Shown here: one piece after another, positions 4,239 to 35,561 of the stretch
How positions within the stretch are numbered: the stretch's first letter is position 1
Layout of the letters: each line of letters begins with the position of its first letter
Origin: a virus
Direction: 5' to 3' (one strand)
IMG/VR virus record: IMGVR_UViG_3300009083_000004
Location: 1-37,692 of that record
Length of the DNA stretch: 37,692 nucleotides
Program-made: the position numbers and the translations under genes
The notes under the pieces: generated by a model
Seen by the model: the letters and a program-made list of their open reading frames with translations, nothing else
What the model was told of the DNA's origin: nothing
Databases searched by the model: none

Positions 4239-6815
4239 TCAATCGCTCAAGAGGCCGCGCTGTTCGGATTCAAGACGGGCGAAGACGCGGTAGACAGCAT
4301 CTTCGGCTGCGCGGCCGATCGCCGCCGGATCGCCGCCTTGGACCTGCACAGTGACTTCCGCGCGCTGGGAGCGGGTGTTGGTGGTCGAACTGGAAGACGC
4401 GCCAGCGACCGCCGCAGCCCCGTTGGTGGTCAATCCGCGCAGGGTGTCGTTCGTCTCGATACGGCCGGTCTGACCGGGCACGAAGATTTCAGGACCGCGC
4501 TCGCCGACCAGGTACGGCTTGCCGAAGCGCACCGGGCCGCCCAATGCGCGCGCGCCAGCGAGCGGCGCGGGAGACTTAGGCGCATTCGGCAAAGTCTTCG
4601 GCGCGGACCACATGCCACGGATGGCACCGGCAACCTCGCCAGCCTTCGAGATGACGGTGCCGAAGAACCCAATCAGGCTTTTGATGCCGTCGATCACGGC
4701 GTTGACGCCGCTCGCTGCCGCGCCGCCGACTGCCTCGCCCCACGACTTCCATTTGGCGCCGCTTTCGTCCAGCGGACCGAGCAACCGCCCCAGCCATCCG
4801 AAGGCGGACGCGAGGCCGTCGCCGATGCTCTTGATCGCCCCGGCGGCCGGGCCAACGCCGGACATGAACCCGTCGCCGAACCCGCCAAAGAAGCTTTTGA
4901 GGCCGTTCCAGTTGTTGGCAACCCACACGCCAAGCGCCGTCAGAGCGACAACGATGGCCGTGATGACCACACCAACGGGGTTGAAGATCAAGGCGGCGCC
5001 GACCGCGCGCAGGGCCACGATGGGGAAGCGCAGAACAGCCGCACCGAACGCGGCGAGGCCCGCGCCAAGGGCGGACACGCCGGCCAGCGCGACCGTCGAG
5101 AACCGCAACATCGCCATCGCGGCAATGAGACCGCGCAGCCGCGCGCCAAAGAGCAGCGCCGCAGCGCCGGCCAGAGCGAGCCCTCGGGCGAGCCCCACAA
5201 CAGCGACCGCCGCCAAACGAAGCGGCGCGAACAGAAGCGCAAGCCCTGCGGCGACACCCTTGAAGGCGAATGCGCCGAGGCGACCGATCGCGCCGAGGAC
5301 AAACAGCAACGGTCCAGCCACCGCCGCAGCCGCGACCAGGCCGACGCCGAGCTTCAACGCCGCCGGGCTCGACTTGCCGAGATCGTCCATCGCCTTCGCG
5401 ATCCGCTCAAGCGCATCCGTGACAACGTCGAGCACGCCGGATCGGGCGATGCTGATCCAGAGGTTGTCCCATGCGCCCTTGAACCGCATCACAGCCCCAA
5501 CGATGCCCTTCAACATCGTCGCGGCACCACGCGCGGACGCGCCATCGGTCTTCGGATCGAGGATTTGGCCCAAGAGGTTCTGATACAAGTCGCCCGAGAA
5601 CAGCGTCGAGAGCCGGGCTCCCTGACGAACGTCGAACAGATTAGCGAGCTTGCCGAGGCTGACGCCCTTCTCTTCGAGAGCGCGGATCATGGCGTCCGCG
5701 TCAACCTCTTCGGCCATATTGCCGAGGAAGCCTGAAATCGTGCTGGCAACTACCTTGCCGTCGCGCGCCTTCAGCTTCATGCCCTCGACAAGCATCTTCG
5801 TGACCGTCTCACGAATCTGCTTCGCCTGCGTCTGCGGGTCCATGTCCTTGACGGCATTCGTGACCTTGTCCATGAGGGACTTGTTCACATTAATGCCGTT
5901 CAAGTTGAGAACGCCCTGCAAGCCGTTGCCGTCGAACTTCTTCCATTTGTTGGTAAACTGCTCGAACGACAGCCCATTGGCTTCCAGCGCGGCGCGCGCG
6001 GCTGCGGTCGGCCTCACCATACGGATCAGCATCGAGCGCAACGCGACGCCGGCCTCGTTGCCCTTGAGGCCGTTCTGATTCATCGTCGCGATGGCAGCGG
6101 CTACCTGCTCGATCGACATGCCCGCCTTGTGCGCCAGCGGGGCGACGTACTTGAAGCCTTCCGCGAAGTCGGACACGTCGGCTCGCGAGATGTTCGCGCC
6201 CTTTGCGAGCACGTCGCCGATCCGGGTCGCAACCTGGCTCGCCTGCTCAAGCGTCTCCATCGGCTTCTGATATGCGGCGGCGACCGAAGTGATAACGTCA
6301 GCGGCTTTCGCCGGCTCAACGTCGCCGTACAGCGAGAAGTTAAGCGTCGGTCGCGACATACCAATGGCCTGGTCAACTGACCGACCGGCCTGAATGTACC
6401 GACGCTGAAGCTCGACCGCATCCTTCGCGCCGGCAAGCCCGAGCCGGGCCATCTCACGCGCGTTGTTTCCGATGCGCTTAAGCTGCTCATCGGACAGTTC
6501 GCCATACGCTTGAGTCTTGTTGAGTTCCTTCTCGAAGCCGTAAACAATCGACGCACCGCTTCGCGCGACCAATGCGCTAGGCATCGTGATCGCCAGCGCC
6601 GCGTCACGGCCCTTCTGTTGAAGTTTCTCGAAGCGCTTCGCCGTCGCATCGACGGAACGATTGAGGGCCGCGAACTGCGCAGCGCCGCGCTGGCCGATAC
6701 CCGCGAGCGAAGCGCCCAAGCTATTGACTTGGGTCTTCGTCGCGGCCACGGCGGCTGCTAGGCTCGGGTTGACCTTGCCCCCGATGTTCACAAATACGGA
6801 GAAGCTGGTCGCCAT
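4239..6815 (-). CDS. T: Tail tape measure protein (P2 gpT-like)
   Basis: An 858-residue protein. The N-terminal 450 residues are helical and Ala-rich with the conserved tape-measure core: GLAGAKDAVELQRRY, DVSDFAEGFKYVAP, AGMSIEQVAAAIATMNQNG and GNEAGVALRSMLIRM. Residues about 485-640 form a long run of hydrophobic segments. The C-terminus is Gly/Ala/Pro-rich with ALGGPVRFGKPYLVGERGPE, the ending seen in many tape measures. It sets tail length and probably helps DNA cross the inner membrane. The ATG at 6813-6815 directly follows the E' stop (TAGATG). Length agrees with P2 gpT (about 815). Confidence 0.93.
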   Translation of the reverse strand: MATSFSVFVNIGGKVNPSLAAAVAATKTQVNSLGASLAGIGQRGAAQFAALNRSVDATAKRFEKLQQKGRDAALAITMPSALVARSGASIVYGFEKELNKTQAYGELSDEQLKRIGNNAREMARLGLAGAKDAVELQRRYIQAGRSVDQAIGMSRPTLNFSLYGDVEPAKAADVITSVAAAYQKPMETLEQASQVATRIGDVLAKGANISRADVSDFAEGFKYVAPLAHKAGMSIEQVAAAIATMNQNGLKGNEAGVALRSMLIRMVRPTAAARAALEANGLSFEQFTNKWKKFDGNGLQGVLNLNGINVNKSLMDKVTNAVKDMDPQTQAKQIRETVTKMLVEGMKLKARDGKVVASTISGFLGNMAEEVDADAMIRALEEKGVSLGKLANLFDVRQGARLSTLFSGDLYQNLLGQILDPKTDGASARGAATMLKGIVGAVMRFKGAWDNLWISIARSGVLDVVTDALERIAKAMDDLGKSSPAALKLGVGLVAAAAVAGPLLFVLGAIGRLGAFAFKGVAAGLALLFAPLRLAAVAVVGLARGLALAGAAALLFGARLRGLIAAMAMLRFSTVALAGVSALGAGLAAFGAAVLRFPIVALRAVGAALIFNPVGVVITAIVVALTALGVWVANNWNGLKSFFGGFGDGFMSGVGPAAGAIKSIGDGLASAFGWLGRLLGPLDESGAKWKSWGEAVGGAAASGVNAVIDGIKSLIGFFGTVISKAGEVAGAIRGMWSAPKTLPNAPKSPAPLAGARALGGPVRFGKPYLVGERGPEIFVPGQTGRIETNDTLRGLTTNGAAAVAGASSSSTTNTRSQRAEVTVQVQGGDPAAIGRAAEDAVYRVFARLESEQRGLLSD

Positions 6816-29872: not shown

Positions 29873-30442
29873 ATGCGTTTTTATGCCGCTTGCCTCGCAT
29901 CCTACAATGCCGGTGTCTTGCATGGCGCTTGGATTGAAGCGTCGGACGATGTCGCCGAAATGCAGATGGAAGTTAACGCCATGCTGCGCGCGTCGCCGTT
30001 CCCCAATGTCACCGTGACGCATCCGGTAACAGGCGAGTCCGTGCCGTCCGCCGAAGAATGGGCGATTCACAACCACGAGGGCTTTGGCGGCGATCTTGCC
30101 GAATATGCCGGGCTAGCGAAGGTCGCGCAGCTATTCACCCTCAATGAAGTCGCCGAAGATCATGACATTCCGCTTTGCATCCTGCGGGACGCTATGAACG
30201 ACGCAACCGCCGACCTTGATCGCGCGGAAGAGTTTATCAGCGACCGATATCGGGGAACGGCTGATACATGGGCCGATTTCGCGGAAGAGTTCACGCGCGA
30301 CACTCACGATATGTCAACGGTTCCGGACTTCCTACAAAACCATATCGATTGGCACAGCATGGGCCGCGAATTTGAAATGTGCGGCGACTTCTCCGGCATC
30401 CGTCACGACGGCGAAAAGCTTTACATCTTCTGGAATCACTGA
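29873..30442 (+). CDS. ardA: Antirestriction protein ArdA
   Basis: A 189-residue acidic protein. The N-terminus MRFYAACLASYNAGVLHGAW is the ArdA signature, followed by IEASDDVAEMQMEVNAML, the EEWAIHNHEGFGG motif, a GDLAEYAGLAKVAQLFTLNE segment, YRGTADTWADFAEEFTRDTH and the C-terminal IDWHSMGREFEMCGDFSGIR then LYIFWNH. ArdA mimics bent B-form DNA and blocks type I restriction enzymes. AGGA lies about ten bases before the ATG. It is the anchor for reading the surrounding small genes as an early accessory set. Confidence 0.95.
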   Translation: MRFYAACLASYNAGVLHGAWIEASDDVAEMQMEVNAMLRASPFPNVTVTHPVTGESVPSAEEWAIHNHEGFGGDLAEYAGLAKVAQLFTLNEVAEDHDIPLCILRDAMNDATADLDRAEEFISDRYRGTADTWADFAEEFTRDTHDMSTVPDFLQNHIDWHSMGREFEMCGDFSGIRHDGEKLYIFWNH

Positions 30443-32793: not shown

Positions 32794-33434
32794 CGGGGGC
32801 TCGCTCGAACGATCGCTCGGAAGAAATGGCCGGCGAAGCGCGCGTTGACGACGCCCTTCACGGTCCCGAAGAAATCCCACGACTCGTCGATCTTGGCGCT
32901 GTCCTGAAGCACTGCGAGCACCTGAAGCGGCGTGCGCTTCGTCGAGGCCCGTCGCACGATCAGCACCTTCCCGTTCTTGGCGACGATCTGGAACGACTTG
33001 CGCTTGTTGCCGCCGATCCGCTTCAACTGCCGGCGCACCACCGTATGCACCGGGGCGCTGCCGATCGAGCCGTATGGCTTGATCAGGATGCCGCCGGTCG
33101 CCAAACGCCCTCGCCCATCGCGCTTGCTGCGGATCGAGAGCTTCCTGTCGGGGTACTTCTCCTTGCCGGCGCCGACGACATGGCGCTCCATGTACTTGTC
33201 GATCGAGCCGACCACCGCGTTGAGCTTGTTGCCGTTGGCCGGGCGGATGCGGATGCCCCCCACCACCCAATTGCGTCGCAGAACGAACAGGCCGGGAGCC
33301 TCGGCTTTCAGCGCAACTTGCGCGTCCTTCGCGGTGAAGGTCAGCGCCTTGGCGGTCGCCGTGTTGACGCTCGATGGCCGCAGGCTTTCGAGCCTGCGAT
33401 CCCAATCCTTGTCGAGCGACATCGTGATCTGCAT
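32790..33434 (-). CDS. Conserved phage protein of unknown function
   Basis: A 214-residue basic protein from ATG 33432-33434 (TGATG overlap with the nuclease; ATG at 33422 is an alternative). It has NTATAKALTFTAKDAQVALK, RRNWVVGGIRIRPANGNKLN, GSIDKYMERHVVGAGKEKYP and ends SWDFFGTVKGVVNARFAGHF. This layout (helix, 'RP' strand region, ending F..A..) is faintly like a phage structural family that I recall in tail or head-closure regions, though here it lies in an early operon. Function open. Confidence 0.6.
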   Translation of the reverse strand: MQITMSLDKDWDRRLESLRPSSVNTATAKALTFTAKDAQVALKAEAPGLFVLRRNWVVGGIRIRPANGNKLNAVVGSIDKYMERHVVGAGKEKYPDRKLSIRSKRDGRGRLATGGILIKPYGSIGSAPVHTVVRRQLKRIGGNKRKSFQIVAKNGKVLIVRRASTKRTPLQVLAVLQDSAKIDESWDFFGTVKGVVNARFAGHFFRAIVRASPR

Positions 33435-33814
33435 CAGTCCAACCGGCTACGAATATCGGCCTCGACCAGATCGGCCAGGCCTTCCGGCGTCTCGGCGGAG
33501 AACGTCAGGACGATGAAGTCGAGCTTGGCGAGGCGCGCGTGGCGCTCGCGCTGATCCTTCGAGCGCCGCCCGGTCGGCGTCTTCAGTTCGATGGACAGCA
33601 ACAGCCCGAAGGGCATGTAGACGCGGATGTCGGGCTCGCCGGCAGTGATTCCGGTGACCTTCGCTTCCATCTGTGCGCGTCGGTTGCGCTTGGCGCGGTT
33701 CATATCGCCAGCGCACGCGATGGGCAGACCTTCGTCCTCCATCCTGTGCAGACGAGCGATGACGGCGGCCTGATAGCGCCATTCAGGGATGTTGTTGACG
33801 ACCCGAGTTTCCAT
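33434..33814 (-). CDS. VRR-NUC domain nuclease
   Basis: A 126-residue protein with the whole VRR-NUC active-site pattern of the PD-(D/E)xK superfamily: E11 and Q15 (PEWRYQAAVIARLH), TAGEPDIRVYMPFG with D62, LSIELKTPTGRRS with E76 and K78, and DQRERHARL with Q88. Phage versions are single-domain and may act as Holliday-junction or flap endonucleases in recombination, packaging or replication. ATG at 33812-33814; no strong ribosome site visible. Confidence 0.88.
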   Translation of the reverse strand: METRVVNNIPEWRYQAAVIARLHRMEDEGLPIACAGDMNRAKRNRRAQMEAKVTGITAGEPDIRVYMPFGLLLSIELKTPTGRRSKDQRERHARLAKLDFIVLTFSAETPEGLADLVEADIRSRLD

Positions 33815-33866: not shown

Positions 33867-34721
33867 TCAGAGAGGCATCAAGCGCCGACCGTCCGACCCA
33901 ATGATCGGCTTGCCGTGCGCCGTCGAGTAGAGCCGCATCCCCTTCCGCCCCCGATCGGCCGTTCGTGCTTCGGCGGTGTAGAGCAAGCCGCTGTCTTCCA
34001 GCCGGAAGGCGATTTTCTCGATCTCGGCACGCTTCATGGTCTGCCCCGTCTTGGCGGCGATCTCGTAGGCTCCGATCCCGAACACGCCTGCCGCCTTGAC
34101 GTAGCGATGCACCCGCTCATCCGCCGGTAGATTGGGCGGTGCCTTTTTCGGCTCGGGCACGGCGATGGGGGTCAGCGGCGCGTCGCCGAGGGCAAGGTCG
34201 GACTCCAACTCCGCGACCACGGGCATGACGCCTGCGAACGTCGCCCATAGGTAGGTCCTGACCAGCGCCACCGGGTAGCCGCGCTGCTCGACGAGCTTGC
34301 GCGTTTCGGACATGACCGCCTTCGCCTCGACCGCGATCGAGCGCCTGATCTCGGCTTGAAGCTCGGGCTGGTCTTGCCAGCCACCCTTCGGCATGCGGGC
34401 CATCAGGATCACGATGCTCCCGATCATCGGCATCAAGCCAGCCAGGAACGCAACCGCCTGCGCCGGCATCAACGACGCCGCCGGCCGTTCGCCAGCGGGG
34501 CGGCCACGTCCGGGGCAGCGGCTCTGCGGGAAGATGCGGGCATGCCCTCGCTGCACCGACCGCCAGATCAGTTTCTTCCGGTGCAGGTACGTCGTCGCCT
34601 GCTCGATATCGCTCGGGTCGATCCTCATGGCCGCGCCGAAGGCGTCCAACCTCATCCCCTGCTCGGGGATCGCAACCTCACGGACCGTCTGCTCCCAAGT
34701 CCTGAAAGTTCCCAATTTCAT
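33867..34721 (-). CDS. Protein with two winged-helix-like domains, possible regulator or replication initiator
   Basis: A 284-residue protein from ATG 34719-34721. Residues about 15-65 (LDAFGAAMRIDPSDIEQATT, LHRKKLIWRSVQRGHARIF) and 205-275 (VHRYVKAAGVFGIGAYEIAA, KTGQTMKRAEIEKIAFRLED, SGLLYTAEART) each look like a winged helix. A hydrophobic/Ala-rich middle (AFLAGLMPMIGSIVILMARM) joins them. It is transcribed away from the AT-rich element 34757-34934, so binding there is plausible. Family unknown. Confidence 0.65.
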   Translation of the reverse strand: MKLGTFRTWEQTVREVAIPEQGMRLDAFGAAMRIDPSDIEQATTYLHRKKLIWRSVQRGHARIFPQSRCPGRGRPAGERPAASLMPAQAVAFLAGLMPMIGSIVILMARMPKGGWQDQPELQAEIRRSIAVEAKAVMSETRKLVEQRGYPVALVRTYLWATFAGVMPVVAELESDLALGDAPLTPIAVPEPKKAPPNLPADERVHRYVKAAGVFGIGAYEIAAKTGQTMKRAEIEKIAFRLEDSGLLYTAEARTADRGRKGMRLYSTAHGKPIIGSDGRRLMPL

Positions 34722-34756
34722 CCGTTGTCATCCCATCTTTCATATTATCGCGAACA

Positions 34757-34934
34757 GGGGGTTTGGAGGGGTATTGGGGTTTTGCGCCTATATATATGGT
34801 ATTGGGCTTAGCTGATATTAGTCATTCACTTATATTCATTATATATATTACCTCTTATATATATACCGAAACCCCCAATGCCCCTACTTGGCCTTTAGGT
34901 TTCGACACAAACCCCCCTTCCAAACCAAAACCCC
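34757..34934. repeat. Two-tier inverted repeat with G-tract and C-tract arms and AT-rich core
   Basis: Left arm: GGGGG (34757-34761), GGGG (34768-34771), GGGG (34776-34779), then an alternating TA run ending at 34797. Right arm: TA-run to about 34865, CCCCC (34872-34876), CCCC (34881-34884), CCCCCC (34912-34917), CCCC (34931-34934). AGGGGTATTGGGG (34767-34779) matches the reverse complement of 34872-34885 except for one base and one bulge, and GGTTTGGAGGGG (34760-34771) matches that of the region 34914-34926. The core 34790-34865 is nearly all A/T. It lies between divergent genes. Confidence 0.7.
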
Positions 34935-34959
34935 AAAGAGCCGAAACCGAAATACATAA

Positions 34960-34976: not shown

Positions 34977-35037
34977 GAATATCAAACGCTTTCGGCCTCC
35001 CCCAACTGACCATCCGTCAACATCCCTCACAAAGTCC

Positions 35038-35066
35038 TTGCAATTCGGATCATCCCCGATTATCCG
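35038..35066 (+). promoter_or_regulatory. Possible promoter of the right-hand early operon
   Basis: TTGCAA (35038-35043), a 17-base spacer and TATCCG (35061-35066). Spacing is ideal; the -10 is a weak match. It leaves a leader of about 105 bases before ATG 35179. Confidence 0.35.
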
Positions 35067-35109
35067 TTGATCCGTGGAGCAGAGACCGAGTCGGCCTGCT
35101 CTTAGGGAC

Positions 35110-35178: not shown

Positions 35179-35547
35179 ATGGCCTATCCGAATGATCCAG
35201 GCTCGAAGGGTGGCGGTGCGTCGAAGGACGCCGCCGAGGCCATGAAGAGCCGCTGCGCCGACCCGCGCGCGCGCGTCACCGCGCTCATGCTCAACGGCCA
35301 CCACCTGACCGCAGACGAGATCGCCAAGCAGCTTGGCGAGACCGTACTGGCGATCCGGCCGCGTGTCTCCGAACTCGTCAAGGCTGGCACGCTGGTCAAG
35401 ACCGCCGACTTCCGCCGGAACATCAGCGACCTGTCCGCGCACGTCCTGCGCCACACGAACCGGCCGGTTGCCGTCCCCCTCCCCGAGCCTGCGCCGAAGC
35501 AGCGCCGGGCGTCCATCCACCACGACCAGAACGCGCTGTTCTGTTGA
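35179..35547 (+). CDS. Winged-helix DNA-binding protein, first gene of the right early operon
   Basis: A 122-residue protein from ATG 35179-35181 with GGGAGAG about ten bases ahead; an earlier in-frame start is in the leader. The core VTALMLNGHHLTADEIAKQL, then GETVLAIRPRVSELVKAGTL and VKT, is a MarR/phage-type winged helix with the recognition helix at about 65-78. The C-terminus is Pro/Arg-rich (PLPEPAPKQRRASIHHDQNA). It is a good candidate to autoregulate from the upstream repeats. It ends 14 bases before the next gene, a gap of pure G. Confidence 0.75.
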   Translation: MAYPNDPGSKGGGASKDAAEAMKSRCADPRARVTALMLNGHHLTADEIAKQLGETVLAIRPRVSELVKAGTLVKTADFRRNISDLSAHVLRHTNRPVAVPLPEPAPKQRRASIHHDQNALFC

Positions 35548-35561
35548 GGGGGGGGGGGGGG
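35548..35561 (+). repeat. G14 homopolymer between stop and start
   Basis: Fourteen G follow TGA 35545-35547 and end at ATG 35562. It replaces a normal ribosome site for the Zn-finger gene. Such tracts slip, so length may vary; some G-run sequences are miscounted by sequencing machines. Confidence 0.85.

Follow-up and report, generated by a model that had tools for sequence, protein, structure and literature searches.

In a temperate phage, two divergent genes are separated by a 457-bp gap with a conserved dyad of two inverted sites around an AT-rich core, and this element has a slightly better than even chance of being a replication origin, bound by the product of the left gene and placed between two repressor-controlled promoters. 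The gap lies between the left gene (33867-34721, minus strand) and the right gene (35179-35547, plus strand) of the window, that is, the whole analyzed stretch of 37,692 nucleotides. The preliminary description offered three roles for the element, an origin, a segregation site or a master control switch. An origin is the best supported of the three.

Conservation, geometry and stability of the dyad

The phage (an IMG/VR record) is a lambda-type siphovirus with a gpA-type terminase and a lambda-family portal, and its relatives are prophages of the root-nodule bacterium Bradyrhizobium. Searches with the flanking genes retrieved the same gene pair and gap from other viral records and from prophages of named Bradyrhizobium genomes; in five loci with distant right-gene homologues (L033, L035-L038) the gap is absent. 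Alignment of the gap from 13 distinct phages reveals two inverted sites of approximately 27 bp with the structure GGGTTTC-n5-TATATATAG-nn-GTAA. In the window, the left arm occupies positions 34777-34803 of the plus strand (GGGTTTTGCGCCTATATATATGGTATT), its GGGTTT block being invariant among the 13 phages, and the right arm is the inverted copy at 34848-34874, where the minus strand reads GGGTTTCGGTATATATATAAGAGGTAA. The outer ends of the two sites are 96-99 bp apart in 13 of 13 phages, and 97 bp apart in the more remote locus of genome G463 discussed below. The core between the arms (34804-34847 in the window), which we propose as the unwinding region, is 42-45 bp long in all relatives. Its sequence is not conserved across subgroups, with identity in the divergent set, between subgroups, close to random (0.49 vs. 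0.44 for shuffled cores).

A model of the element built from sequence alone finds exactly one dyad per phage record (eight relatives and the window). It also matches the opposite strand at the same place, which is the dyad symmetry in another form. In host genomes, the dyad is observed at prophages only: it is present in 7 of the 266 sampled Bradyrhizobium genomes, once in six of them and twice in G012, where the two dyads correspond to two copies of the locus. In the loci L084/L085 of G012 (contig C20), the left gene is interrupted and the adjoining dyad is intact. A pattern scan of viral contigs yielded 26 contigs with a candidate dyad, and those beyond this phage group were rejected because of chance-level model scores. 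One dyad per phage, a nearly fixed distance between the sites, and a core of near-random identity between subgroups all favor an origin.

The AT core claimed in the preliminary description is confirmed, since it falls within the 100 bp with the smallest GC content in the whole window (29%, at 34772). In each of four genomes (the window, G001, G002, and G006), the element has the lowest GC content and contains the least stable 60- and 100-bp duplexes (instability z of 5.7-6.5), and the density of AAACC/GGTTT peaks at the same place. These extremes in 4 of 4 genomes further support an origin; on the other side, a high AT content is also common in control regions between divergent genes. Also against an origin are the cumulative GC skew, which does not consistently switch at the gap as it would at an origin, and the position of the element several kb outside the helicase/primase operon.

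The arms are accompanied by an outer tier of repeats. On the left, the iteron-like G-tract repeats GGGGGTTTGGA and GGGGTATTG (34757-34776, plus strand) lie within the AAACC/GGTTT density peak and likely also form the upstream part of the left promoter. On the right, C-tract/AAACC repeats were delineated at 34875-34952 (minus strand) by the inverted-repeat search and repeat density. The outer tier varies among the relatives: tandem G-tract repeats are found in the window, in L032, L003, and L009, and on the right side of L007, and the tier is degenerate in the L002 group. Each side of the AT region has repeats, as one 27-bp arm in all phages and, additionally, as tandem G-tracts in a part of the clade. 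In one subgroup (L002:4690-4765 and equivalents in L006, L008, L021, L023, L028, L029, and L046), a second dyad, GGTTTaGTTTTGCG...CGCAAAACccAAACC, with the invariant ATAATATGGA after it, lies about 40-100 bp to the right of the main element.

A symmetric, single-copy, intergenic element might also serve as a partition, packaging or recombination site. We consider this highly improbable: eight phage records have no ParB_N domain (the one partition domain searched for), which removes the support for a segregation site, and the gpA-type terminase genes are located about 8 kb from the element.

Pairing of the arms and probable recognition by protein

The inverted repeat noted in the preliminary description exists, in two pairings: 34767-34796 with 34856-34885 (30 nt, 80% complementary) and 34757-34782 with 34909-34934 (26 nt, 73% complementary). 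The inner dyad scores 19, compared with a mean of 9.7 (sd 1.8) in shuffles of the G-rich and C-rich sides performed separately, and none of 300 shuffles reached this score. The proposed arrangement in two tiers is not confirmed. Both pairings use the same left G-tracts, with 34767-34782 common to both, and therefore they are alternatives more than nested layers. Folding energy, which was to be set against shuffled sequence, gives a z of about -3.9 for 180 nt, both as DNA and as RNA; this value is discounted because its shuffle does not keep the G-rich and C-rich sides apart and thus flatters the element.

An extruded cruciform or a transcribed hairpin as the functional form would agree with the fold score and with a few matched changes in both arms (TA/TA in L002, AT/AT in L023, and AG/AG in L032). 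The comparison of the gap across relatives makes it very unlikely. The arms are retained in 13 phages, but their pairing is not systematically maintained by compensatory change. Ungapped arm complementarity ranges from 22 to 89% per phage, and in L007, L029, and L046 even gapped pairing is no better than in shuffled sequence, which corresponds in part to an outcome, change of the arms without kept pairing, that the preliminary description had named as telling against it. The identity of arms within one phage is 0.64 vs. 0.59 across phages, a difference (permutation value of 0.006) attainable by relatedness alone. The Rfam scan of the gap produced no match, and the suggested G-quadruplexes found no support: the canonical pattern of four G3+ runs is absent from either strand of the gap in the window and the relatives, with loops of 1-7 or 1-12 nt.

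What is retained is the sequence of each site, the orientation, and the distance, which points to protein binding. Since arm pairing is not systematically kept, the dyad more likely acts as a protein-bound site than as a cruciform. Promoters inside the arms were also considered and rejected by eye, as no -35 element occurs at a constant spacing.

The left gene, the neighboring genes and putative repressor operators

The candidate dyad-binding protein and proposed initiator is the product of the left gene. Its structural model (pLDDT 80.9) has two winged-helix-like domains, joined by a linker and a helical middle part, in agreement with the earlier assignment, and several PDB matches to its parts are winged helices. 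The linker is flexible and contains an invariant RGRP, which we take to be AT-hook-like; Pfam models report no AT-hook in the protein. Comparisons of the whole protein identified no full-length fold match, no Pfam match over the cut-off, no PHROG match, no sequence relative among known initiators, and no match in 50,697 phage records. In an order-level genome sample, the gene is found in the centre genome only. The lack of a known-initiator relative and of a full-length fold match weighs against an origin.

The small right-gene product belongs to the phrog_1123 family and is probably a winged-helix protein too, as had been suggested, with a model pLDDT of just 69. The next gene in the left unit (33434-33814, minus strand) encodes a VRR_NUC-like or resolvase-like nuclease with a Pfam match below the curated cut-off, and an ArdA antirestriction protein homologue is encoded at 29873-30442. 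Between the stop codon of the right gene and the ATG of the next reading frame there is a run of about 14 G (35548-35561), possibly a slippage site or a sequencing artefact.

Divergence of the element follows that of the left protein. Among nine related phages, the Mantel r is 0.73 and the partial r given the right protein is 0.71, compared with a partial r of -0.24 for the right protein given the left. A second line of evidence is provided by G463 from the family sample, where a left-gene homologue (54% identical to that of the window, with no match in 72,556 plasmid records) has an integrase and an AlpA-like gene in its vicinity and is followed, about 380 bp downstream, by the dyad. Here, the left gene and the dyad are present without the right gene and in another relative position. 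With its additional tape-measure gene, the locus (L088, G463:C17, 7245-16842) resembles a decayed or satellite-like island. The co-variation and the persistence of both partners in G463 favor an origin served by the left protein. The Mantel test covers nine related phages. The G463 region resembles a decayed prophage, so its arrangement supports the partnership only moderately and is weak evidence for an origin.

Genes for a ResIII helicase and a Prim-Pol/DUF3987 primase are present in the phages, and a search for Rep_3-type initiators found none, a combination that again favors an origin. P4-type primases bind their own origins; the initiator role could likewise fall to the Prim-Pol/DUF3987 protein, or host DnaA could bind the origin, with the left gene being merely a regulator. 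We regard this scenario as improbable, because the element goes together with the left gene, also in G463, whose 20 kb read showed no primase, and inspection of the gaps by eye revealed no consistent DnaA box.

A stronger competitor, still rather unlikely in our estimate, is a transcriptional switch, in which the dyad is an operator or enhancer for the left (or right) protein that controls two divergent lytic units and has no role in replication. The dyad is separated from the left gene start by 46-77 bp and from that of the right gene by about 305-325 bp, both neighbors are DNA-binding-type proteins, and divergent transcription coincides with putative repressor operators in the same gap. These operators, however, already account for the control of both promoters. 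They are ATCCGT-n4-ATCC direct repeats with a 10-bp period, located over the left gene start (34720-34733, plus strand, ATCCGTTGTCATCC) and around the right promoter. The latter, likely TTGCAA-17-TATCCG at 35038-35066 (plus strand), was read from the sequence, and its TTGC..TATCC pattern is conserved in relatives; one operator lies upstream of it (35012-35025, plus strand, ATCCGTCAACATCC) and another overlaps it (35052-35067). In G001 and G002, this motif also flanks the gene for the S24-type immunity repressor. Sites of the ATCC-n6-ATCC form were located at 6095 and 6926 in G001, 52409 and 53261 in G002, and 38016 in G006. In G006 (L032), ATCCAA replaces ATCCGT in the two places, the gap and the vicinity of the repressor gene, and the repressor N-terminus is 49-55% identical to those of G001 and G002, which are 75% identical to each other. 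A motif common to the gap and the repressor gene, together with its switch in the phage with a distant repressor, makes these sites most likely immunity-repressor operators, and with such putative operators, the dyad is not needed to explain how transcription from the gap is controlled. Moreover, an operator would have no need to be the genome's least stable 100 bp or to keep a diverged 44-bp AT core of fixed length, and in G463 the dyad is downstream of the left gene. Thus, the gap is indeed a control region, as the master-switch proposal implied, but by way of separate operators outside the 34757-34934 segment for which that role was suggested.

Under the favored origin interpretation, the left-gene product would bind the two inverted composite sites, each consisting of a GGGTTT block, an alternating TA tract, and a GTAA block. 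Its two winged helices and RGRP linker may engage both sequence blocks as well as the AT minor groove. Once bound at the fixed geometry of about 98 bp, the protein would strain and open the core, allowing the phage helicase and the Prim-Pol primase to load. In the prophage, the immunity repressor would hold both neighboring promoters, and hence the initiator gene, shut; induction would free them.

The literature searched contains no described origin for this group of Bradyrhizobium temperate phages. It is possible, with somewhat less than an even chance, that the left protein represents an undescribed initiator family (winged helix, AT-hook-like linker, winged helix) with a cognate origin of about 98 bp, in which the length of the core is conserved and not its sequence. 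If so, these phages of nodule symbionts would offer a testable origin and a new initiator type, the locus would show how an immunity repressor could directly gate an initiator gene, and the element might become a compact replicon part for alphaproteobacteria.

Comparison with known origins

Iteron plasmid origins (RepE, Rep_3) share with the element the combination of repeats and an AT-rich region, and a candidate initiator with two winged helices. Unlike them, the phages yield no Rep_3 match, the sites are arranged as an inverted dyad, not as direct iterons in an array, and clear DnaA boxes are missing. In phage lambda, origin repeats adjoin an AT-rich region, and the operators are repeated at the repressor gene and the lytic promoters. 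Both features are seen here, whereas the element is outside the candidate initiator gene and the operators are 10-bp direct repeats ATCC-n6-ATCC.

An anatomical match, which itself favors an origin, is with the PICI/SaPI-type origins, where two iteron sets flank an AT-rich region and the origin is located 3' of rep (PMC6092414). Several differences are observed. The candidate initiator lacks a helicase/primase domain and does not resemble Rep, and by Pfam, PHROG, and Rep_3 comparison the adjacent gene is not homologous to a known Rep or initiator. The sites are inverted and held at a fixed distance, and the phage element lies on the 5' side of the gene. The likeness is in the short repeats that flank an AT-rich region, which is the least stable 60 and 100 bp in the four genomes, and in the adjoining (here, candidate) initiator gene. 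It extends to gene order in G463, where an integrase, an AlpA-like gene, the left-gene homologue, and the element follow one another, just as a PICI origin follows rep.
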